Counted from the stretch's first letter, positions 31,877-62,323 are shown. The stretch: 64,000 nt of DNA from Bacteroidota bacterium (GCA_026391675.1 JAPLDQ010000003.1:62001-126000), one strand, 5' to 3'. Made by a program: numbers and translations. The notes: generated by a model from the sequence alone, not told the origin.

Positions 31877-33883
31877 ATGATTGGACTGGAATATATAATA
31901 TACGCTACTATTGGAATTTGCTTGTCTTTCTCAATTATACTATTATATACACCTTTAAAATTTAAAGCTAATCTGGCAGTATATGCTGTATTAGTAAATG
32001 CATTGCTCACATCCTGGGTAAGCTTCCCTGCATTATATGGAAATATTGTTGAATATGCTATAAATGCCGGATCTATATTGGGAAACATAGCGGTTCGTAT
32101 TGACGGTCTGTCTGCATGGTTTATTCTGATAATAAATTTCACTTCAGTTACCGGAATTATTTACGGCAGCGGATATTTAAAAGCATATAATTCAACTTCT
32201 TCCAAAATTAACCTTCATTTAATACTGTATAACATTTTTCATCTTTCAATGATTTGGGTTTGCATGCTGCAACACGGACTGGCATTTTTGATTGCCTGGG
32301 AAATTATGTCATTATCATCTATGTTGCTTGTAATATTTGACCATCATAATCCTAAAACCATCAAAGCCGGCATCAATTACCTTGTCCAAATGCATATCAG
32401 TGTTGTGTTTCTTAGTATTGGCTTTATCTGGGTGTATTTTCAAACTGATTCTTTTAGTTTTGATGCTTTCCATACATTTTTTGCCGGTAATTCAAATATC
32501 TGGCTTTTTCTGATATTCTTTTGCGGTTTCGGTTTTAAAGCAGGATTCATTCCATTTCACAGCTGGTTACCGCATGCACATCCTGCTGCTCCATCGCATA
32601 TATCAGGCGTTATGTCCGGTGTTATCGTAAAGATGGGGATTTATGGAATTTTCAGAATCATCACTTATCTGAAAACAGATTTTTTATTGCTGGGCGAAAT
32701 AATTGTTACAGTTTCTGTAATAACAGGATTGTATGGAATATTAAATGCAGCCGTACATCGCGATTTTAAAAGGATGCTTGCTTTCTGTACAATCGAAAAT
32801 ATTGGTATTATTGGCATTGGTATTGGCATTGGCATGATGGGGATTGGCAATGGTTCAGCCATGCTCTTTTATCTGGGTTTTGGAGGTGCCTTATTACATG
32901 TTTTAAATCATTCATTATTTAAATCCCTGCTTTTTTACGCTGCTGGTTCCGTCTATCAGCAAACCCATACACGGAATATGGAAAAGTTGGGTGGTTTAAT
33001 CAAACATATGCCAAAAACAGCAGTAATTTTTCTGATAGGGGCTATTGCCATTGGCGGTATTCCTCCTTTTAACGGATTTGTTTCAGAATTTATCATTTAC
33101 AGCGGACTTTTGGAAGGGATGAAATCAAGCAGTCTGAGTCAGCTGAGTTTATTGATACTTTCATTTGCCGGACTAAGTATTATAGGAGGAATTTCGATTT
33201 TAGCCTTTACAAAATCATTCGGGACAATATTTCTGGGCCATGAAAGAGAAAAGCCTGATCATCAGCCAAAGGAAGTATCGATGCGTATGCTTTTCCCACA
33301 ATATATAATTATAGTAGTTATGCTTATTGTGGCTTTTTTCCCTCAAATCTTCCTGTTTACCATTAGCAATATATTAAGGCAAATGATTATTCCACCATTT
33401 AGGTTGGAATCATCAGTCTTTAATATTTATTCTTCAATAATTACAAATATCAGTATTTATTCTGTTTTATTTATAGGGATTATTGTCATTAGCTGGAAAA
33501 TACGTGCTTATATTGTCAGACGTAATTCAGACAGCATACAAGCTACGTGGGGATGCGGATACAATGGAATTGCACAAAAAGCACAATATACCGGCAAATC
33601 ATTTTCCAAGCCTTTGAGTAAAATTCTCAATTTTTTATTGATTGAGCAAAAACAATATACAGAATTACAAGAGGGCGAAATTTTCCCGGTAAAAAGAAAA
33701 TATGCATCAACCTATTTCGATTTTTTTGAACATTTATTTATCAAACCCTTTATCAGAAGGTTATTGTATGCTTTCAATTATTTTAAGTTTATACAAAATG
33801 GAAGAATACAATCTTATGTAATCTATGGAATTGTATTTATTATCGCTATTTTTGTATTAACCGTTTTAAATATCATCCAATGA
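31877..33883 (+). CDS. HyfB-like (NuoL/Mrp antiporter-type) membrane subunit, copy 1 of Ehr-like complex
   Basis: A 668-residue polytopic membrane protein with about 15 hydrophobic segments, homologous to HyfB of hydrogenase 4 and to proton-pumping NuoL/N subunits. The glutamate in AWEIMSLSSMLLV and the lysines in KAGFIPFHSWLP and SGVIVKMGIYG are the conserved charged residues of antiporter-type channels. The family pattern HPAAPSHISGVMSG is intact. It should conduct protons or sodium ions coupled to redox in the peripheral arm. The stop overlaps the start of copy 2 by 4 bases (ATGA), indicating translational coupling. A short codon-repeat stretch encodes IGIGIGIGMMGIG at about 32804-32850. 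Confidence 0.88.
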   Translation: MIGLEYIIYATIGICLSFSIILLYTPLKFKANLAVYAVLVNALLTSWVSFPALYGNIVEYAINAGSILGNIAVRIDGLSAWFILIINFTSVTGIIYGSGYLKAYNSTSSKINLHLILYNIFHLSMIWVCMLQHGLAFLIAWEIMSLSSMLLVIFDHHNPKTIKAGINYLVQMHISVVFLSIGFIWVYFQTDSFSFDAFHTFFAGNSNIWLFLIFFCGFGFKAGFIPFHSWLPHAHPAAPSHISGVMSGVIVKMGIYGIFRIITYLKTDFLLLGEIIVTVSVITGLYGILNAAVHRDFKRMLAFCTIENIGIIGIGIGIGMMGIGNGSAMLFYLGFGGALLHVLNHSLFKSLLFYAAGSVYQQTHTRNMEKLGGLIKHMPKTAVIFLIGAIAIGGIPPFNGFVSEFIIYSGLLEGMKSSSLSQLSLLILSFAGLSIIGGISILAFTKSFGTIFLGHEREKPDHQPKEVSMRMLFPQYIIIVVMLIVAFFPQIFLFTISNILRQMIIPPFRLESSVFNIYSSIITNISIYSVLFIGIIVISWKIRAYIVRRNSDSIQATWGCGYNGIAQKAQYTGKSFSKPLSKILNFLLIEQKQYTELQEGEIFPVKRKYASTYFDFFEHLFIKPFIRRLLYAFNYFKFIQNGRIQSYVIYGIVFIIAIFVLTVLNIIQ

Positions 33884-35904
33884 TCATAATAAAAGTATTC
33901 ATAATACTATTGATGTTGGGATTTATCTTAATTCCTTTTATGCAATTAAAAGGAAAAGGGATAGTATCTTTTTCAGTTATTCTGGTCAATGCTTTATTAT
34001 CCTCTTATCTTGCCATTCAATGTCTTGCAGGCGAAAAACTGGAATTTATACTTCCCGGAAGTTATATTACCGGATTAATACCTCTTAGAATTGATGCTTT
34101 GTCTGCTTGGTTTATGCTGATTATCAATTTTGTATTTCTAACAGGGAACTTTTATGGATTGTCATACATGAAAGCATATAAGGCACAAAAAAATAATATC
34201 AGTTTACATGCTATAGCAATGCTGATATTACATGCATCACTTATCAGTCTTTGTGTTATACAAAATAGTTTTGTGTTCCTGATTGCCTGGGAAGGGATGG
34301 CACTATCAGCTTTCATACTGATAATATTTGAGCATGAAAAAACTGCAACTATTAAAGCAGGCATAAATTATCTGATTCAATCTCATATTTCCATTGTATT
34401 TCTAATGATAGCATTTATCTGGATTGCTATTAAAAAAGGTAGTTATGATTTTAATGCAATTACAGCATATACGATTGAGAATCATCCAATGGCATTACTT
34501 TTATTTATATTCTTTTTAATTGCATTTGCTATAAAAGCCGGCTTTGTACCTTTCCACACCTGGCTTCCTTATGCACATCCTGCTGCTCCTGCACATATAT
34601 CGGGTATCATGTCCGGAGTAATTATTAAAATCGGAATTTTTGGTATCCTCAGAATGCTTTTAGTTGTGAAGCCTGATTTTATAACAACAGGTTACATCAT
34701 ACTTATAATTTCTGTAATTTCCGGGTTATATGGAGTTATGCTGGCCATTATACAACACAACTTAAAAAAACTTTTAGCTTATCACAGCATTGAAAATATT
34801 GGTATTATTGGAATCGGGATCGGAACCGGATGTATTGGGCTTGGTTCAAACAATCAACTTTTAGCCGGTTTAGGCTTTGCAGGAGCATTACTGCATACTT
34901 TGAACCATGCATTGTTTAAATCATTGTTATTTTATACTGCAGGGATAGTATATCAGGCAACACATGATTTAGACATAGAACATCTGGGTGGGTTAATAAA
35001 GAAAATGCCACAAACTGCAATTTTATTTCTGATTGCAGCTATTGCTATCTGTGGCATACCTCCTTTCAATGGATTTATCTCTGAGTTTCTTATATACAGC
35101 GGATTATATCAATGGATGCAGCACGCTTTGCTCTTTTCATCAATTGCCATCATATTTACAGTATTAGGATTGGTTTTGATAGGCGGATTGGCTATGCTGT
35201 GTTTTACCAAAGCATTCAGTATTGTTTTTTTAGGTAATGCCAGAAAGAATTTTTCTCATGAAATAAAGGAGCCTCCATTTATTGAGTTGTTACCACTTTA
35301 TTTTATTGCTTTATTCATTGTCATGATTGGTGTTTTCCCTTTACAATTCATTCAATTTCTGTCGCATACGGTTTTGCTGTTTACAGCCAATATCAGTCCG
35401 TCAGTAAACACATTGGATTTGAATATTTTTCAGGTTTTACAACCTATCAGCTTTGCAATGTGGGGACTGGTTCTGCTTATTGTCTGTTTATTTTTTCTGA
35501 GAAAGTTTATACTCAGCAGCAGAAAAGACAGTATTCAACCAAGTTGGGGATGTGCCTATAATGCGCCAACCGTAAAATTACAATATACGGCAAACTCGTT
35601 TGTAAGACCATACCGTAAACTATTCAGACCCTTCTTGCTATTATTTAAAATTCAGAAAGATACAAATGGAATTTTCCCTGAAAAAGCACATTACAACACC
35701 CATCCTTACGATAAAATTGAACAATATTTAATCGACAATCCAATTAAAGCATTTAAATCATTTCTGAGTCGTTTTTTATTTTTACAGAATGGCAAATTGC
35801 AGTTTTATATTTTATATGGGATAATTTTTATTGTTTCAATTATATGTATCCCTTTATTTTACGAACAAGTTATAAGATTTATTGAATTTTTAAAACAATT
35901 ATAA
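33880..35904 (+). CDS. HyfB-like membrane subunit, copy 2 of Ehr-like complex
   Basis: A 674-residue paralogue of the preceding gene, clearly homologous over the whole length (roughly half identical by eye), with the same landmarks: AWEGMALSAFILI, KAGFVPFHTWLP, HPAAPAHISGIMSG and IIKIGIFGI. Both copies end with the same extended C-terminal domain (QPSWGCAYN here, QATWGCGYN in copy 1), which is unusual outside HyfB. The two genes plus the HyfF-like gene give three antiporter-type subunits, the number found in complex I (NuoL, NuoM, NuoN). The next gene begins 1 base after the stop. Confidence 0.88.
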   Translation: MIIIKVFIILLMLGFILIPFMQLKGKGIVSFSVILVNALLSSYLAIQCLAGEKLEFILPGSYITGLIPLRIDALSAWFMLIINFVFLTGNFYGLSYMKAYKAQKNNISLHAIAMLILHASLISLCVIQNSFVFLIAWEGMALSAFILIIFEHEKTATIKAGINYLIQSHISIVFLMIAFIWIAIKKGSYDFNAITAYTIENHPMALLLFIFFLIAFAIKAGFVPFHTWLPYAHPAAPAHISGIMSGVIIKIGIFGILRMLLVVKPDFITTGYIILIISVISGLYGVMLAIIQHNLKKLLAYHSIENIGIIGIGIGTGCIGLGSNNQLLAGLGFAGALLHTLNHALFKSLLFYTAGIVYQATHDLDIEHLGGLIKKMPQTAILFLIAAIAICGIPPFNGFISEFLIYSGLYQWMQHALLFSSIAIIFTVLGLVLIGGLAMLCFTKAFSIVFLGNARKNFSHEIKEPPFIELLPLYFIALFIVMIGVFPLQFIQFLSHTVLLFTANISPSVNTLDLNIFQVLQPISFAMWGLVLLIVCLFFLRKFILSSRKDSIQPSWGCAYNAPTVKLQYTANSFVRPYRKLFRPFLLLFKIQKDTNGIFPEKAHYNTHPYDKIEQYLIDNPIKAFKSFLSRFLFLQNGKLQFYILYGIIFIVSIICIPLFYEQVIRFIEFLKQL

Positions 35905-35905
35905 A

Positions 35906-36811
35906 ATGCTGAGTTTAATTTTACAACTAATAGCAGCTATATTTTTTACGGGTATAATTATCCGTACTAAAAGTATATTTTCCGGGCGAAAAGGTCCGGG
36001 AATCCTTCAACCGATTAAAGATGTTATTAGGCTTTTTAAAAAATCCGCAGTTTATAGCGAAACCACAAGTTTTATTTTTCAGATTGCACCTACTGTTTAT
36101 TTTTCATCAGTTATAATGGCTATGCTGGTTATACCATTTGGTCAGTCAAAAGGTATTATTTCATTTAACGGAGATTTTATTTTCTTTGCATATGTTCTGG
36201 CATTGGGAAAATTCTTCAGTATTATTTCAGCAATGGATACCGGAAGTAGTTTTGAAGGCATGGGTGCCAGCCGCGAAGCCCTATATTCGATGTTTGCCGA
36301 ACCTGCATTTTTCATACTTATGGGTTCACTGGCATTACTTACAGGCCACACATCATTTCAGGAAATATTTTCCGCATTACATATAGGTTCATACATAACC
36401 TATGCACTTGCAATACTTGCCACTTTTGTATTGTTAATGATAGCCATGATAGAAAATAGCCGTATGCCTATTGATGATCCTAAAACACATCTGGAATTAA
36501 CAATGATACACGAAGTTATGATACTGGATAACAGTGGTTTTGATTTAGGACTTATATTAACAACCGGATATTTAAAATTTGCAATGTATGGAGCACTTAT
36601 AGTCAATCTTTATATTGGTGTAATTCCTTATGGCTTTACTATTCCTTTATTCTTTATCATACAGTTTTTAATGGCGTTTATGATAGGAACGATAGAATCC
36701 TTTATGGCAAGATTCAGAATGGGACATAACGCACAGTTTATTTTTGCACTTACTTCTGTAAGTCTATTGATTTTTTTCGGTGCATTACTAATTCTGGGGA
36801 AATTTTTATAA
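35906..36811 (+). CDS. HyfC-like (NuoH) membrane subunit
   Basis: A 301-residue membrane protein with about 8 helices, homologous to HyfC/HycD and to NuoH, which joins the hydrophilic arm to the membrane arm of complex I. The signature GRKGPGILQPIKDVIRLFKK (about residues 27-46) and the conserved acidic loop SRMPIDDPKTHLELTMIHE (near residue 188) are present; in complex I this loop helps couple quinone chemistry to pumping. It is immediately downstream of HyfB copy 2, and 18 bases separate it from the HyfE-like gene. Confidence 0.9.
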   Translation: MLSLILQLIAAIFFTGIIIRTKSIFSGRKGPGILQPIKDVIRLFKKSAVYSETTSFIFQIAPTVYFSSVIMAMLVIPFGQSKGIISFNGDFIFFAYVLALGKFFSIISAMDTGSSFEGMGASREALYSMFAEPAFFILMGSLALLTGHTSFQEIFSALHIGSYITYALAILATFVLLMIAMIENSRMPIDDPKTHLELTMIHEVMILDNSGFDLGLILTTGYLKFAMYGALIVNLYIGVIPYGFTIPLFFIIQFLMAFMIGTIESFMARFRMGHNAQFIFALTSVSLLIFFGALLILGKFL

Positions 36812-36829
36812 CTTTTAAATACAATAAAA

Positions 36830-37462
36830 ATGATAAATGTATTATTAATAACATTTCTGATTACCTTATTCTATATAGCTATAGCTAACAGAATGCTCAC
36901 CTATATCAATGTACTGGCGTTACAGGGGGTATTGCTTTTCTTTGTAGTATTTCTTCAGCTTAATGAAATAAGTACATTGAACCTTACATTGATACTTTTG
37001 GAAACGATAATATTTAAATCGATAGCTGTTCCGGTTTTTCTGGCATATATACTTAAGCGAAACCATATAACCCGGGAAGCAGAACCGTTTCTGCCGAATT
37101 TTGTATCATTGATTATTACAACGATAATAGTTGTAGCCACAATTTTATTAGCCAACAGCATAGAAGACAAGCATTTGGATAAGATATTTTTCGTTGTAGC
37201 CTTATCTACGCTTTTTACAGGACTCTACTTTATTGCAACACGCAGAAAAATTATAACACACGTAATGGGTTATTTAATTATTGAAAATGGAGTTTTTGTT
37301 TTATCGTTAGCAGTTGGTAACGAAATGCCAATGCTGGTAAACCTCGGCATTATGCTTGATATATTTGCCAGTGTACTCATTTTGGGAATTTTCCTGAATA
37401 AAATCGGGGATGTATTTAAAAATATTGATGTAAACCAACTCAGTAATTTGAAAGATTATTAA
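36830..37462 (+). CDS. HyfE-like membrane subunit (NuoK-like)
   Basis: A 210-residue protein with about six hydrophobic helices and few charged residues, matching HyfE, whose C-terminal half is NuoK-like (GYLIIENGVFVLSLAVGNEM near residue 148, with a glutamate inside the helix, then a D in LGIMLDIFASV). Together with NuoH-like and antiporter-like subunits it would make the membrane channel arm. It lies in the operon between the HyfC-like and HyfF-like genes with short spacers. Confidence 0.85.
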   Translation: MINVLLITFLITLFYIAIANRMLTYINVLALQGVLLFFVVFLQLNEISTLNLTLILLETIIFKSIAVPVFLAYILKRNHITREAEPFLPNFVSLIITTIIVVATILLANSIEDKHLDKIFFVVALSTLFTGLYFIATRRKIITHVMGYLIIENGVFVLSLAVGNEMPMLVNLGIMLDIFASVLILGIFLNKIGDVFKNIDVNQLSNLKDY

Positions 37463-37482
37463 TCTGACTAATAGAAATAAAT

Positions 37483-38910
37483 ATGATGTTACTATATCTC
37501 ATACTGGCTTTCACAATTGTAATCGCACTGTTTATCAACAGGAATAAAGCTATTAATATTTCCTTGCTTGGGTTATTTGTCGTGCTGCAATGGGGAATTA
37601 CAATTTATGCCTGCTTTCATTTCCGTTCAACCGAACTTGAATATTTCACTTTCGATGCTTTGGGCATCCTTTTACTTCTGACTTTAAGTATTATTACTAT
37701 TCCGGCAGTAATACACGGTTTAATTTATATTAAGGACAATAAAGATACTGCGCAATCCCGTGCTATCTTTTTCGCAGCTATTGTTGGCCTGATTACTGCA
37801 ATCGGTGCTGCATATCTTTCAAACCATATTGCTGTTACATGGATATTCACTGAATTAACAACCTTATGTGCATCTGCTTTAATCTACCATCACCGGAATA
37901 AATTGGCTTTAGAAGGTACCTGGAAATATATTTTTATTTGTGCTATCAGTATTACCTTTATTTTTATTGGAATTTTATTTTTAAGTCTTTCGCTGATACA
38001 TGCTGGTTCTTCAGATTTGTCTTTTAAAAACTTATTGGCAAATAGTGATAAATTAAATCCATTCTGGTTACGTTTGTCCTTCCTGTTTATATTTACCGGA
38101 TTTACTGCTAAACTCGGATTGGTTCCCATGTATACAGCAGGCATTGATGCAAAGGATAAAGCACCTGGTCCTGCGGCTGCATTGCTTTCCAGCGTATTAA
38201 TGAATGTAGGGTTTGTTGGCATATTCCGCTTTTATATTGTTGTTGCAAATACGCCTTTGCACCATTGGGCTAATTTAGTTATCAGCATAGCTGCATTTTT
38301 ATCCATATTTGTTGCCACTGTTTATATGGTTAAAGTGAAAAATATAAAGCGGATGTTTGCTTATTCCAGCATAGAGCATACCGGACTGGTAATGCTTGGT
38401 ATTGCAGCAGGTGGTATAGGTTATTATGCGGCCATACTTCATATTATTCTGCATGCTTTTGTTAAATCAAGTCTTTTCTTCCAGTACAATCAATTGTATA
38501 AAGTGTTTCAGACAAAAAGTATATACCAGATAGGTAATTATTTTAAATACAACACAACTGGTGCTATTGTTATCTTATTAGGATTTATAAGTGCTGTAGC
38601 CATGCCTCCTTCCGGTTTGTTTGTGAGTGAATTTCTTATTTTCAAATCTATGTTTCAGTCTGGTCAGATCTTAGTACTTGTATCTGTTCTTATTTTGCTT
38701 ACTATGATAATTTGGGCTTTTGGAAAAAACATATTCAAAATTCTATTTATTCCTGCCATTGGGTTTGATGAAAAACATGTGGCGGTAATTAGTCCATGGG
38801 AATCTGTTACTCAGTTTATTCTTCTAGCAGCAGCCGTATATTTAGGCTTAAATCCACCTCATGAATTTGTACAATTAATCAAGGAAAGTGTAATGCAATT
38901 ACCAATTTAA
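37483..38910 (+). CDS. HyfF-like (NuoM/N antiporter-type) membrane subunit
   Basis: A 475-residue polytopic subunit similar to HyfF. The features seen are the glutamate in IFTELTTLCASALI, the lysines in TAKLGLVPMYTAGIDAKDKAPG and the histidine/lysine series near AFVKSSLFF (a helix that lines the channel in NuoM/N). It lacks the C-terminal extension of the HyfB-like pair. Two ATG codons occur at the start; either fits. It is the third ion-channel subunit of the complex. Confidence 0.87.
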   Translation: MMLLYLILAFTIVIALFINRNKAINISLLGLFVVLQWGITIYACFHFRSTELEYFTFDALGILLLLTLSIITIPAVIHGLIYIKDNKDTAQSRAIFFAAIVGLITAIGAAYLSNHIAVTWIFTELTTLCASALIYHHRNKLALEGTWKYIFICAISITFIFIGILFLSLSLIHAGSSDLSFKNLLANSDKLNPFWLRLSFLFIFTGFTAKLGLVPMYTAGIDAKDKAPGPAAALLSSVLMNVGFVGIFRFYIVVANTPLHHWANLVISIAAFLSIFVATVYMVKVKNIKRMFAYSSIEHTGLVMLGIAAGGIGYYAAILHIILHAFVKSSLFFQYNQLYKVFQTKSIYQIGNYFKYNTTGAIVILLGFISAVAMPPSGLFVSEFLIFKSMFQSGQILVLVSVLILLTMIIWAFGKNIFKILFIPAIGFDEKHVAVISPWESVTQFILLAAAVYLGLNPPHEFVQLIKESVMQLPI

Positions 38911-38917
38911 AACAATC

Positions 38918-40417
38918 ATGAACTATATCACCATAATAAACAATCAAACAATAGCCCTTTCAACAATACCTGAAATTGACTACGATACATTTTTTGAGTT
39001 AAATACAGGATTCATGATTGACCATGCAGAAAGGCATTGTGTAAACTATTTCGGCTATAAAACCGGAGACAAAATAAAGTTGATTTGTTGTATTGCAGAT
39101 GATGATAAACATGAAATATATGTTTCTTCCTGCTTATATGACAATACATCTGTAATAACTGCTTTTACATCCAAACTGCTATGTTTTGAAAAATATGAAC
39201 GGGAAATTCATGAAAACTTCGGTATTAATTATGAAGGACATCCATGGCTTAAACCTGTCCGTTATCCGTTTAACCGCTTCGATCAGTTAAAAACAATAGC
39301 TAATTATCCGTTTTATAGTATTGAAAGCGAAGAATTACACGAAGTAGGTGTTGGTCCAATACATGCCGGTGTTATTGAACCCGGGCATTTCAGATTTATA
39401 TGCAATGGCGAACAAATTTTGCATCTTGAAATACAACTGGGCTATCAGCACCGTGGAATTGAACAATTATTTCTTGAAAAGAAAAAACTGTTACAAAAAG
39501 TAAGTCTTGCTGAAAATATAGCTGGAGATACTGTTGTAGGACATACTACAGCATTTTCACACATATGGGAAAGTATTTGCGGATTTGAAATATCCGGTGA
39601 TATAGCATTTGCACGTACTTTGGCACTAGAATTAGAAAGAATAGCCATTCATACCGGTGATTTAAGTGCAGTTTGTACTGATGTAGCCTATCAACTTGGC
39701 AGTTCAGTTTTCGGACGGCTCCGTACACCTGTCATCAATTTTATGCAGGAATGGTGCGGTAACCGTTTATCAAAAGGTCTGATCAGACCGGGAAGCAATC
39801 AATTCCCATTTGATAAAGCGTTGGCAGACAAACTTAAATTGGTATTAGATGAATTTGAACCCGATTTTAATGAAATGTGCAAACAATTATTTAAACTTCC
39901 CAGTGCTTCATCCCGCTTCGAGAGAACAGGTGTTGTATCCTATGAGGATGTATTGTCTGTTAATACCGTAGGAATGGCAGCGCGTATGAGCGGGTTAAAC
40001 AGAGATATCCGTACATCGCATCCTTATCTCTGCTATCCGGAATTACAACACCAACCCATCATCAAACATCATGGTGATGTTTATTCCCGTGTGCAAATAC
40101 GGAAATCTGAAGTACAGCAGTCTATAAAATATATCCGTAAATTATTGGAAAATATTCCTGAACTCAACAATCAATATAACGAATTGAAAACTCCTCAGGC
40201 AGATTCTTTTGCAATTGCATTGGTTGAAGCATGGCGTGGCGAAATTTGTCATTGTGCAATTACCGGTAAAAAGGGGGAATTACTTTTATACAAGATCAAA
40301 GACCCTTCATTTCATAACTGGATGGCGCTGGCTTTATCTGTCAGGAACAACGAAATATCCGACTTCCCTATCTGCAACAAGAGTTTTAATTTGTCATATT
40401 GCGGTCATGATTTATAA
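38918..40417 (+). CDS. NuoC-NuoD fused large subunit (HyfG/HycE-like) without NiFe ligands
   Basis: A 499-residue soluble subunit: an N-terminal NuoC-like part (about residues 1-130) and a C-terminal NuoD/hydrogenase large-subunit part. The L1 motif RVCGIC of [NiFe]-hydrogenases is replaced by NIAGDT (residues 200-205; Ala202 and Thr205 in place of the two Cys). The C-terminal L2 motif DPCxxC is replaced by DFPICNKSFNLSYCGHDL, with cysteines 486 and 495 at the wrong spacing. It therefore cannot hold a normal Ni-Fe centre and is unlikely to be a hydrogenase. The rest of the fold (GYQHRGIEQLF, FARTLALELERIAIH) is well conserved. Actual substrate is unknown. Confidence 0.88.
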   Translation: MNYITIINNQTIALSTIPEIDYDTFFELNTGFMIDHAERHCVNYFGYKTGDKIKLICCIADDDKHEIYVSSCLYDNTSVITAFTSKLLCFEKYEREIHENFGINYEGHPWLKPVRYPFNRFDQLKTIANYPFYSIESEELHEVGVGPIHAGVIEPGHFRFICNGEQILHLEIQLGYQHRGIEQLFLEKKKLLQKVSLAENIAGDTVVGHTTAFSHIWESICGFEISGDIAFARTLALELERIAIHTGDLSAVCTDVAYQLGSSVFGRLRTPVINFMQEWCGNRLSKGLIRPGSNQFPFDKALADKLKLVLDEFEPDFNEMCKQLFKLPSASSRFERTGVVSYEDVLSVNTVGMAARMSGLNRDIRTSHPYLCYPELQHQPIIKHHGDVYSRVQIRKSEVQQSIKYIRKLLENIPELNNQYNELKTPQADSFAIALVEAWRGEICHCAITGKKGELLLYKIKDPSFHNWMALALSVRNNEISDFPICNKSFNLSYCGHDL

Positions 40418-40435
40418 TAATTAAGAGAAAGTATT

Positions 40436-41185
40436 ATGCTTGATAATATAAAAATTTTATTCCATCAGGGAAAACAGTTTATACCTGATGTTACAAAAGC
40501 CAAAGTTCCAGGAATATTCAGGGGAAGACCGGTTATAAGTTGTGAAAAAGTAGATGAAGTCAAACTACAGGATTTATGTCCTGTTGCTGCAATTTCTATT
40601 GACCCTGTTGCAATTGACCTTGGTAAATGCAGTTTCTGTGGAGAATGTGCTAAGCAATTTCCAGATAAAATAGAATTTTCTACAGATTATAAGTTGGCTA
40701 CCAATGAAAGGGATAGATTAATAATAAAAGAAGGTGATGATTCTCCGATTGAGGTAAATCCGGCAACTGTTCGTAAAGAAATCCACAGTATTTTCGGAAA
40801 ATCCTTAAAACTCAGACAAATCAGTGCAGGTGGTGATAATAGCTGCGAATGGGAACTTAATGCAAGCAATAATGTCCAGTTTGATATGGGTCGCTTTGGG
40901 ATTGAATTTGTTGCTTCGCCCCGGCATGCTGACGGAATTGTAATTACTGGTCCTATTACTAAAAATATGGCTGAAGCTGTTCAGATTTGTTACGATGCTG
41001 TTCCCGAACCAAAAATTATTGTTTTGGTTGGTACGGATGCAATCAGTGGTGGGATTTTTGAAAATTCTCCTGCTATCGACAGAAGTTTCCTTAGTAAGTA
41101 TAAAATAGATTTGTTTATTCCGGGAAATCCTGCCCATCCATTGACGATAATTAATGGCTTACTTGATCTGACAAGAAAAAAATAA
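40436..41185 (+). CDS. Ferredoxin-NuoB-like fusion small subunit with one [4Fe-4S] cluster
   Basis: A 249-residue protein joining a ferredoxin-like part (residues about 20-90) to a NuoB/HyfI-like part (about 125-249). The ferredoxin retains Cys48, Cys65, Cys68 and Cys71, exactly the set for one cluster, while the other motif has lost its cysteines and the last is Phe75. In the small subunit, three of the four proximal-cluster ligands are replaced: Asp134, Asp201 and Asn231 stand where Cys is expected; only Cys137 remains. The sequence VGTDAISGGIF and PGNPAHPLTII align with VGxCAxxGGIF and PGCPPRP. Electron flow through this subunit must differ from hydrogenases. Confidence 0.8.
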   Translation: MLDNIKILFHQGKQFIPDVTKAKVPGIFRGRPVISCEKVDEVKLQDLCPVAAISIDPVAIDLGKCSFCGECAKQFPDKIEFSTDYKLATNERDRLIIKEGDDSPIEVNPATVRKEIHSIFGKSLKLRQISAGGDNSCEWELNASNNVQFDMGRFGIEFVASPRHADGIVITGPITKNMAEAVQICYDAVPEPKIIVLVGTDAISGGIFENSPAIDRSFLSKYKIDLFIPGNPAHPLTIINGLLDLTRKK

Positions 41186-41263: not shown

Positions 41264-42691
41264 ATGAAATTTACACCCGAAATATGCAGTATTAAAGATG
41301 AGCGCATGCAGCCTTTTATTGATGCTGATGAAATTTGGAATTACCTTAATAACACTGCATCAACACCTGAAAGAGTCAGAGAAATCATTGCAAAATCTAT
41401 CAGCAAGCAACGCTTAACACTCGAAGAAACTGCTGTATTAATTAACACCAATGATCCTTTATTAATAGAAGAAATAAAACAAGGTGCCAGAACACTTAAA
41501 GAAAAGGTATATGGAAACCGTATAGTTTTATTTGCACCTTTATATATAGGCAACAAGTGCTCAAATAATTGCACCTACTGTGGTTTCAGGGCTTCCAATA
41601 CTGAAGCTGAAAGAAAAACCCTGAATGATGAAGAAATTGTTAAAGAAATTGAAGCGTTGGAAGACAATGGCCAGAAAAGATTAATTCTGGTTTATGGAGA
41701 ACACGCCCAATATAGCCCTGAATATATTGCTCATACTGTTAAAATTGCTTATGGCGTAAAAAAAGGGAATGGAGAAATACGCAGGGTAAATATTAATGCA
41801 GCGCCTTTGGATATTAAGGGTTTTAAAACGATTAAAGAAGCAGGCATAGGCACATATCAGGTTTTCCAGGAAACTTATCACCCTGAAGCCTATAAAACCT
41901 ATCATTTAAGAGGGAAAAAAGCAGATTACGGTTATCGTTTAACTTCTCTTGACAGAGCTCAGGAAGCCGGCCTGGATGATGTTGGTATTGGTGTATTATT
42001 TGGCTTGTACGACTGGCGTTTTGAAGTTATGGCCCTCATCCGCCATACCAATCACCTGGAAGCCTGTTATAATGTAGGCCCACATACCATTTCATTTCCC
42101 AGGATAAAAGATGCTTCCACCCTCGATCTGGGTGAAAAATATTTTGTAAATGATGAAAATTTTGTAAAACTAATTGCTATTTTAAGATTAGCAGTTCCCT
42201 ATACCGGGATGATTCTTACTGCCCGTGAACCAGCCTGGCTCAGAAACGAAATAATTCAATTCGGTATTTCTCAAATTGACGGTGGTACAAAGATAGAATT
42301 AGGCAGCTATGCAGAAACGCTCAACCATGAACAAGACTTAAACAGAGGTCAATTCCGTATTAACGACGAGCGTTCATTGAATGAGATAATTGATGAATTA
42401 TTTGAGAAAGATATGCTTCCATCATTCTGTACAGCATGTTATAGAATGGGCAGAACAGGTGAGCATTTTATGGAATTTTCAGTTCCGGGTTTTATTAAAA
42501 GATATTGCTCACCCAATGCTATTCTGACATTAGCTGAATATTTAATGGATTATGCCCCTAAAAATACTGCCATTAGAGGTTGGGAAGTTATTGAGAAAAA
42601 TATAAAGCTTTTAGAAAATGAGAAAGTAATTGATGCTGTAAAAGAAAGAATTGAAAAAATTAAAAACGGAGAAAGAGATTTATACTTCTAG
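41264..42691 (+). CDS. hydG: [FeFe]-hydrogenase H-cluster maturase HydG
   Basis: A 475-residue radical SAM tyrosine lyase that cleaves tyrosine to p-cresol and dehydroglycine and converts the latter to CO and cyanide, delivering an Fe(CO)2CN synthon for the H-cluster. The radical SAM motif CX3CX2C is Cys99, Cys103, Cys106. A second cluster motif CX2CX22C is at Cys389, Cys392 and Cys415; this C-terminal site distinguishes HydG from the related ThiH. hydE, hydF and a catalytic [FeFe]-hydrogenase gene are not in the window. It follows the Ehr-like operon by 78 bases in the same orientation. Full-length and apparently intact. Confidence 0.93.
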   Translation: MKFTPEICSIKDERMQPFIDADEIWNYLNNTASTPERVREIIAKSISKQRLTLEETAVLINTNDPLLIEEIKQGARTLKEKVYGNRIVLFAPLYIGNKCSNNCTYCGFRASNTEAERKTLNDEEIVKEIEALEDNGQKRLILVYGEHAQYSPEYIAHTVKIAYGVKKGNGEIRRVNINAAPLDIKGFKTIKEAGIGTYQVFQETYHPEAYKTYHLRGKKADYGYRLTSLDRAQEAGLDDVGIGVLFGLYDWRFEVMALIRHTNHLEACYNVGPHTISFPRIKDASTLDLGEKYFVNDENFVKLIAILRLAVPYTGMILTAREPAWLRNEIIQFGISQIDGGTKIELGSYAETLNHEQDLNRGQFRINDERSLNEIIDELFEKDMLPSFCTACYRMGRTGEHFMEFSVPGFIKRYCSPNAILTLAEYLMDYAPKNTAIRGWEVIEKNIKLLENEKVIDAVKERIEKIKNGERDLYF

Positions 42692-60870: not shown

Positions 60871-62178
60871 TTATAAACCAAATGCTTTTTGTATCGGTTT
60901 TACATAGTCTAAGTTTTCCCAGGCAAAGAATTCCACTTCTTTAAAATATTTTTCTTTACCTCCAACTTTTTTGGTTTTGGTATCCTTATTTTTGTAATAC
61001 ACTTCAACTTCTTTCTTTACATAATCCCGGCCAAAATGGCCATAACTGGCTGTAGCAAGGAAGATAGGATTTTTCAGTCCGAAACGTTTAACAATCGCAT
61101 AAGGACGCATATCAAAAATTCCGTTTATCTTTTCGGCAATCTGGCCGTCGGTTAATTTTTTACCGGCTTTGTCTTTTACTTTGGCAGTGCCATAAGTATT
61201 AACATACAAACCTACCGGTTGAGCAACGCCAATAGCATAAGCAACCTGAACCAATACTTCGTCGGCAACACCAGCTGCAACAAGGTTTTTGGCAATATGA
61301 CGGGTTGCATAGGCTGCAGAACGGTCAACTTTTGAAGAATCCTTACCTGAAAAAGCGCCACCACCGTGAGCACCTTTACCACCATAAGTATCAACAATAA
61401 TCTTGCGTCCGGTTAAGCCGGTATCGCCATGAGGTCCGCCGATTACAAATTTACCTGTAGGGTTTACATGCAATTTAAATTTGCCTTTCAACATTTTTTT
61501 AACACTTTCGGGTAAAGTATTCACTTTAGAAACCCGAGGAATCAATATCTCCAGCACATCTTTTTTAATAGTTTCGAGCATTTTCTTTTCGGTATCGAAA
61601 TCATCATGCTGAGTTGAAATAACTATGGTATCGATACTTTTGGCTTTACCATTATCGTCATAGGCTATAGTAACCTGAGATTTGGCATCAGGACGGAGGT
61701 ATTTCATTTTTTTGCCTTCGCGGCGGATTTCGGCCAGTTCCTGTAACAATACATGTGCTAACTCAATCGGCATAGGCATATAGTTGTCCATTTCCTTGCA
61801 GGCATAGCCAAACATCATACCCTGATCGCCGGCACCCTGATCTTCTTCTTTTTTACGTTCAACACCCTGATTGATATCACTGGATTGTTCGTGTATGGTT
61901 GAGATAACACCACAGGAATCAGCATCATAGCGATATTCAGCTTTGGTATAGCCGATTTTACGTATTGCTTCTCTGGCAATTCCCTGAATGTCAATATATT
62001 CTTTTGTTTTAACTTCACCGCTGCAAACGGTTAAACCGGTAGTTACCAAGGTTTCGCATGCTACCTTTGATTCCGGATCATGACGTAAAAATTCATCTAA
62101 TAATGCATCTGATATTTGATCAGCAACTTTGTCCGGATTACCTTCCGAAACAGATTCGGATGTAAATAAATATCCCAT
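60871..62178 (-). CDS. metK: S-adenosylmethionine synthetase with Asn at the catalytic His14 position
   Basis: A 435-residue MetK making SAM from ATP and methionine. Conserved blocks: [28 protein letters not shown], the [10 protein letters not shown] and [14 protein letters not shown] loops, GGGAFSGKD and KVDRSAAYA. In E. coli numbering the motif GHPDK has His14 contacting the triphosphate; here codon 14 is AAT (Asn), read GNPDK. It is a C-to-A change in the first base of a His codon. The start at 62178 yields MGYLFTSES, the usual N-terminus; a promoter at 62294-62323 and a structured leader lie upstream. All other catalytic residues appear intact. Extra length lies in the C-terminal 40 residues. 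Confidence 0.9.
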
Positions 62179-62217
62179 TTTATATAATTTTAAATTTGTA
62201 ACTAATTGATAATTTGA

Positions 62218-62272
62218 GATTGCCGAAATTGGAAGGAAATGGTTTTTAGCATTTTTTCCAGTGGTTGCAATC
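62218..62272 (-). ncRNA. Possible structured leader of metK
   Basis: Within the 110-base leader on the minus strand, GATTGC (complement of 62267-62272) pairs with GCAATC (complement of 62218-62223), enclosing an inner GGAAA/TTTCC helix (62255-62259 with 62235-62239) whose loop reads TGCTAAAAACC. The layout, in front of metK, suggests an RNA switch or attenuator sensing SAM or methionine, but I could not match it to a named family. Confidence 0.35.
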
Positions 62273-62293
62273 ATACAAATCTTTCCACGTCTG

Positions 62294-62323
62294 CAAAAGT
62301 AGTAATATTTTATATAGTACAAA
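62294..62323 (-). promoter_or_regulatory. Promoter for metK
   Basis: Minus strand TTTG (62320-62323), 18 bases, TACTTTTG (62294-62301). Consensus in both parts with spacing one shorter than usual. The start of transcription near 62287 leaves a leader of about 110 bases before the metK ATG. Confidence 0.7.

Follow-up and report, generated by a model that had tools for sequence, protein, structure and literature searches.

Energy-converting hydrogenase-related (Ehr) complexes are common, and the published work on them assumes that they conserve energy by redox chemistry. The coupling mechanism of the complex I superfamily is still debated. By the published definition, an Ehr complex is one in which the NiFe ligands are absent (PMC10284858, PMC6349859). 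The papers on Ehr complexes, which include those of G. sulfurreducens (GSU0739-45), Nitrospira and Melainabacteria, describe only this NiFe loss (PMC7894505, PMC10284858, PMC6349859), and we found no activity for any Ehr complex in the literature searched. The locus reported here is a seven-gene, Ehr-type operon at 31877-41185 (+) of a 64,000-nucleotide stretch of DNA from a Bacteroidota bacterium (the window; positions are counted from its first nucleotide). It shares with the described Ehr complexes the subunit set, the missing NiFe CxxC motifs and the antiporter-like subunits, and as it fits the published definition of an Ehr complex, it belongs to a known type of system. The clade of the window differs from other Ehrs in that it also lacks the N2 ligands, carries a ferredoxin-like domain with one cluster fused to the small subunit and frequently has two HyfBs; the four-Cys N2 cluster is usual, though not definitional, in the small subunit of Ehr complexes. 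Our search of the open literature turned up no description of the N2-less variant, which alters the expectations for Ehr function.

The seven open reading frames lie on the same strand and follow each other almost without gaps (Table 1). The first-pass annotation had read them as two HyfB-like genes, HyfC-, HyfE- and HyfF-like genes, a NuoC-D fusion and a NuoB-like gene, and these coordinates and family assignments hold. Among solved structures, the soluble subunits come closest to those of E. coli formate hydrogenlyase (7z0s) and Pyrococcus MBH (6cfw), and the HyfC-like subunit to chain 7z0s_D, the HycD of formate hydrogenlyase. Formate hydrogenlyase and hydrogenase-4 (HycC-G, HyfA-I; 7z0s, PMC9474812) have homologous HyfB/C/E/F and large and small subunits, and the gene order is near hyfBCEFGI; in contrast to these systems, the operon has neither NiFe nor N2 ligands, and no HyfA/HyfH-type subunits or maturation genes were found in it. 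The operon also contains no NuoE/F/G, i.e. no NADH-oxidising module. In the host genome assembly (4.04 Mb, 48 contigs) a profile search gave no match to HypD (PF01924), and there was no PF00374 match that would indicate a NiFe hydrogenase.

Table 1. Genes and diagnostic residues of the operon, in window coordinates
Feature	Position	Strand	Evidence
HyfB1, antiporter-like membrane subunit, 668 aa, ND3-like C-terminal extension	31877..33883	+	NCBIfam HyfB, E about 1e-144
HyfB2, second antiporter-like subunit, 674 aa	33880..35904	+	HyfB match, E about 1e-145; key residues as in HyfB1
HyfC/HycD/NuoH-like membrane anchor, 301 aa	35906..36811	+	PF00146, E 3e-36
HyfE-like membrane subunit, 210 aa	36830..37462	+	NF008556, E 7e-20
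HyfF-like antiporter subunit, 475 aa	37483..38910	+	PF00361, E 2e-40
Large subunit (LSU), NuoC+NuoD-like fusion, 499 aa, without NiFe or quinone-site residues	38918..40417	+	Family matches, alignment
LSU Ile153, column of the complex I quinone-site His	39374..39376	+	Alignment
LSU L1 loop E199-NIAGDT205 (hydrogenase ERVCGIC; complex I DRMDYLS)	39512..39532	+	Alignment
LSU Asp255, column of complex I Asp-139	39680..39682	+	Invariant in the 14-member LSU alignment
LSU L2 and C-terminus D482-FPICNKSFNLSYCGHDL499, without cleavable extension	40361..40414	+	Alignment
Small subunit (SSU), one-cluster ferredoxin-like domain fused to NuoB domain, 249 aa	40436..41185	+	PF01058, E 2e-21
SSU Cys48, Cys65, Cys68, Cys71, sole [4Fe-4S] motif left, N6b-like spacing	40577..40648	+	124/124 N2-less SSUs
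SSU Asp134, N2 Cys1 position	40835..40837	+	122 D + 2 E of 124 N2-less SSUs
SSU Cys137, N2 Cys2 position, varies in the clade	40844..40846	+	107/124 Cys, else A/G/V/N/Y and others
SSU Asp201, N2 Cys3 position	41036..41038	+	122 D + 2 E of 124 N2-less SSUs
SSU Asn231, N2 Cys4 position	41126..41128	+	123/124 Asn in N2-less SSUs

Two features elsewhere in the window deserve mention. Directly 3' of the operon lies a gene for HydG, the [FeFe]-hydrogenase maturase (41264-42691 (+), TIGR03955 well above cut-off). We considered this neighbour as a hint of an Fe-CO/CN cofactor and rejected the idea: gene-order scans with HydG among the queries found no HydG neighbour in any related locus, and the genome carries HydE and three HydA-type matches elsewhere. 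Because the related loci have no HydG beside the operon, its adjacency here is probably due to chance. A SAM-II riboswitch (RF01726, 58 bits) at 62236-62294 (-) overlaps the TTG start of the ORF at 60871-62322, whose true start probably lies further in.

The large subunit was aligned with E. coli HycE, HyfG and NuoCD, with the NuoD of the same genome and with a NiFe group 4 enzyme of a related genome. In L1 the CGIC of the hydrogenases is replaced by AGDT (residues 202-205), in L2 DPCxxC is replaced by NLSYCG, and no CxxC was found at a shifted position in the alignment with HycE, HyfG, NuoCD and NuoD. The alignment agrees with the first-pass annotation, which had noted both changes and had concluded that no NiFe centre can be built; the conclusion stands, as all four NiFe Cys ligands are absent and the genome has neither HypD nor a NiFe hydrogenase. 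In other words, both the L1 and L2 CxxC motifs and the Hyp maturation system of group 4 [NiFe] hydrogenases are missing here. The resemblance to complex I (NuoBCDH, L/M/N) extends to the fold, the equivalent of Asp-139 and the antiporter Glu/Lys residues. In complex I, His-38 and Tyr-87 have roles at the quinone site, and Asp-139 connects this site to NuoH (PMC5938582). The His and Tyr columns read Ile153 and Gly203 in our protein, which, unlike complex I, also has no N2 and no NADH module in its operon. To judge from these columns, the large-subunit pocket is not of the quinone type.

The altered L1 and L2 motifs are common to all relatives examined and are therefore not due to chance. Moreover, many LSU residues are invariant, including pocket residues that are neither of the NiFe nor of the quinone type. 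In a tree of large subunits, as the first-pass annotation had proposed, the Ehr rows split from HycE, HyfG and a NiFe LSU at 100% SH-aLRT, and this placement with NiFe-less LSUs, together with the subunit set and the lost NiFe ligands, bears out its assignment of the locus to the Ehr family. It had also suggested that the FNLSYxGxDL-type C-terminus occurs in the mycobacterial HycE-like cluster (Rv0082-Rv0087) and argued for a wide family rather than a decayed gene. Such a C-terminus does occur outside Bacteroidota, the actinobacterial Rhodococcus protein (L227) ending in NKSFNLSYAGNDL, and the wide, conserved family is supported. A model in which LSU and SSU formed a read-through fusion was given up, as the alignment had put LSU C-termini onto the SSU.

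The NuoB domain normally binds the proximal (N2) [4Fe-4S] cluster through four Cys residues; electrons are known to reach the large-subunit pocket by one route only, and N2 is its last step. In the SSU of the window the four N2 columns read D, C, D and N (GGDNSCE, VGTDAISGG, PGNPAHP), i.e. three of the four ligands are absent, a loss that the first-pass annotation had not reported. Among 137 distinct SSU relatives, 13 have all four N2 Cys and 124 do not. The replacements D134, D201 and N231 are conserved among the 124, so that the loss of the N2 ligands is not decay. We note that this conservation is high and not exceptional, since 51 of the 126 columns of the NuoB domain reach 98% or more. 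His234 is invariant. The AF2 model of the SSU (pLDDT 84) has the NuoB fold, with 7z0s_G as the best match. In this superfamily the relay steps span 9-14 A (PMC5938582) or less than 14 A (PMC9474812). If its position is as in the homologues, the cluster of the ferredoxin-like domain would, without N2, be two relay steps away from the LSU pocket. We found no report of N2 loss in NuoB-like proteins in the open-licence literature searched.

The SSU is present in 69 of the 295 genomes of the order, and a scan of 84,980 species genomes gave at least 524 candidate relatives, of which the best 80 loci are all N2-less. Among the matches listed the relatives belong to Bacteroidota (Bacteroidales and Prolixibacteraceae MAGs, Paludibacter, Lentimicrobium, Chitinophagaceae and the isolate Niastella vici), and the gene order B(B)CEF-large-small is constant. 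A concatenated tree of LSU, HyfC, HyfF and HyfE permits one N2 loss in the Bacteroidota clade. As the branch support is weak (16), and as the N2-containing loci L130-L132 fall among N2-less rows in the LSU-only tree, these trees are consistent with a single origin of the loss within this clade and do not prove it. N2-less SSUs were also found in other lineages, the loci from other phyla being taken from plasmid records. They carry different replacements, namely T/D/E/S in Allomeiothermus, D/C/D/D in L271 and N/D/D/A in Mycobacterium branderi, which suggests that N2 was probably lost several times; the Cys3 position is acidic in each N2-less lineage. On its plasmid pMESIL01, Allomeiothermus silvanus carries the same Ehr-bearing segment twice (L225, L302).

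The Fe-S content of the Ehr-like complexes sampled ranges from N2 alone (Rhizobium, Azospirillum, Burkholderia, Cupriavidus, Rhodococcus, Methylocalor) through N2 plus two or N2 plus one further cluster to one cluster without N2 (the clade of the window) and to none (L135/L271). No Fe-S cluster is common to all of them, whereas the pocket and the membrane residues are. The L135/L271 operon (G307, contig 386) has an SSU with neither N2 ligands nor a ferredoxin domain, and apparently no Fe-S cluster. It lies on an 8.4 kb contig, is unique among the 295 genomes and could be a contaminant.

The membrane subunits are highly conserved at the positions of the ion path. In the HyfBs of N2-less loci the TM5 Glu, TM7 Lys, TM8 Lys, His345 and TM11 Lys (E142, K221, K252, H345, K349) are present in 154/154 sequences, and the TM12 Glu and the ND3-like Cys (E404, C560) in 153/154. 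The TM7 Lys, which corresponds to Leu208 in E. coli HycC (PMC9474812), is retained in the HyfBs of the window. HyfF keeps E124, K210, K328 and E383, and the acidic residues of HyfC are conserved, i.e. the acids and lysines of both proteins are retained. Two HyfBs are found in 58 N2-less loci and one in 38. The ND3-like Cys loop should dock once per complex; both HyfB copies of the window (31877-35904) carry it. Between N2-containing and N2-less members, no residue is fixed differently in LSU or in HyfC, and HyfF and HyfE have a single such residue each. Fixed differences are thus almost absent from these four subunits, so the conserved work of the complex seems to be independent of the N2 wire. 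HyfB and HyfF are homologous to MrpA and MrpD of the Mrp-type cation/H+ antiporters, with a conserved Glu/Lys ion path, and it is likely, as far as homology can tell, that the ion work is similar. Compared with Mrp, however, the complex adds hydrogenase-like large and small subunits, and no MrpE/F/G-like genes were seen in the operon.

No conserved partner gene was found in the window's clade, in which the commonest neighbour family occurs at 9 of 142 loci. The sister operons that contain N2 include a gene for an HTH+PTS EIIA or for a related EIIA at 25 loci, and SulP is adjacent to or inside the operon at 8 loci. The HTH_17+PTS_EIIA_2 regulator-like gene is a regular member of these operons within the phylum (L043-L049, L273-L287, L291, L292, L296), and a SulP-STAS-PTS EIIA fusion lies between the LSU and SSU genes in L051 (6939-9140) and L293. 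A SulP near a NuoB-like gene in Streptomyces (L304) was left out of the SulP count, as no full Ehr operon was seen there. In E. coli, PtsN-type EIIA is known as an inhibitor of a K+/H+ antiporter (PMC11808508).

Another NiFe-less family, more distantly related, stands directly behind RF01734 fluoride riboswitches in Burkholderia, Caballeronia and M. branderi, with crcB, CLC, DUF190, pyrophosphatase and enolase genes nearby; the operons in these fluoride-resistance islands (L299, L300, L301, L303) are hydrogenase-like. The fluoride-riboswitch loci L299-L303 (PMC11139923) have HyfB/C/E/F-type genes like the window, and the M. branderi member is N2-less too, but their LSU is distant, and the window has neither the riboswitch control nor the fluoride genes. 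In a review, 'formate hydrogen lyase' ranks among the genes most often associated with fluoride riboswitches and is interpreted as part of metabolism (PMC11139923). This label may be wrong, since the LSUs of the fluoride loci examined are predicted to be incapable of binding NiFe. As a whole, the gene context of the relatives points to ion balance rather than to dehydrogenases. No RF01734 riboswitch was found in the window or in eight relatives, and no SulP or EIIA gene near the operons of the window's clade, so the context evidence is borrowed from relatives.

Judged by the aligned motifs, the Ehr complex of the operon belongs to a derived clade, widespread in Bacteroidota, whose cytoplasmic arm has neither a NiFe site nor an N2 cluster. 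We tentatively favour the reading, which we hold with somewhat less than even confidence, that the complex is an ion translocator not driven by electrons through N2, with the hydrogenase-like arm as a gate; ion movement, the non-electron drive, gating and the physiological role are all things that we infer. HyfB1, HyfB2, HyfF and HyfC would move protons, probably in exchange for a cation, and this movement would serve cytoplasmic ion or pH balance. The LSU pocket would be a gate or a non-redox site controlled by ligand binding or protonation and not by electrons via N2, and the [4Fe-4S] cluster that is left would either have a structural role or sense the redox state. We favour this ion-translocator reading because conserved D134/D201/N231 replace the N2 ligands in 124 distinct SSUs, and because the ion-path Glu, Lys and His of HyfB are invariant or present in all but one of 154 sequences, the acids and lysines of HyfF and HyfC are conserved, and almost nothing is fixed differently between N2-containing and N2-less members. 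It also draws on the varying Fe-S inventory with no cluster common to all complexes sampled, on the different replacements in other N2-less lineages, on the ties of relatives' operons to EIIA, SulP and fluoride riboswitches, and on a genome without HypD or NiFe hydrogenase. We thus depart from the first-pass annotation, which had seen a redox machine for energy conversion whose only gap was the identity of its donor and acceptor: N2 is lost with Asp/Asp/Asn in its place, LSU, HyfC, HyfE and HyfF show almost no fixed differences, and the context of relatives is EIIA, SulP and fluoride, not dehydrogenases. Against the ion-translocator reading, the invariant [4Fe-4S] motif of the clade suggests a redox role, the many invariant LSU residues suggest catalysis rather than a lid, and the context evidence comes from relatives and not from the window's own clade.

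An electron-driven pump is an unlikely alternative, though the strongest of those considered. Here the Asp134/Asp201/Asn231 site would bind a mononuclear metal or another cofactor that replaces the N2 relay step, so that electrons reach a substrate in the LSU pocket. The conserved Asp/Asp/Asn and the invariant His234 could form a metal site, the ferredoxin-like cluster is invariant in the clade and the Cys3 position is acidic in every N2-less lineage; however, the Cys2 position is free to vary, other N2-less lineages carry T, N, S or A, which are poor metal ligands, and in L271 there is not a single cluster motif from which such a centre could be fed. We also consider it rather improbable that the pocket performs non-redox chemistry (e.g. 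hydration, ligand turnover or anion handling) coupled to ion movement, by a logic like that of the CO2-hydrating complex I relatives. Such chemistry would fit the invariant pocket residues of neither NiFe nor quinone type and the SulP anion transporters adjacent to or embedded in relatives' operons, but no substrate or catalytic metal suggests itself, neither a DabA-like nor a carbonic-anhydrase gene was seen in the operon, and SulP is absent beside the window's clade. It is less probable still that the complex is a conventional Ehr redox pump whose one remaining cluster has another docking position, from which it gives electrons straight to the pocket, so that N2 is not needed. All four ferredoxin Cys are invariant and the complex otherwise resembles N2-containing Ehrs, but the SSU retains the NuoB fold, and other Ehrs have N2 and no ferredoxin domain, so that no single electron entry fits all members. 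Decayed genes or an assembly artefact, which the loss of cofactor ligands at two sites might suggest, are refuted to the point of being negligible by a dN/dS of 0.03-0.09 against a congener (with dS near saturation), the SSU in 69/295 genomes, the conserved operon order and the invariant ion-path residues.

A bolder proposal, which we regard as possible and rather doubtful, is that the operon encodes a widespread complex I relative without electron transfer, which has lost its NiFe, quinone and N2 sites, has a conserved Asp/Asp/Asn site in place of the N2 cluster and translocates ions by a non-redox mechanism gated by the pocket; by extension, Ehr-like complexes, including the 'formate hydrogenlyases' of the fluoride regulons, would be ion-homeostasis machines and not oxidoreductases. 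For the physiology of these organisms, the findings suggest ion, pH or anion stress as a lead. Pocket and ion path persist in this clade, but the wire has lost its final cluster; as a natural experiment, the clade separates ion translocation from electron delivery in the complex I superfamily and allows transport to be tested directly with no redox substrate present.
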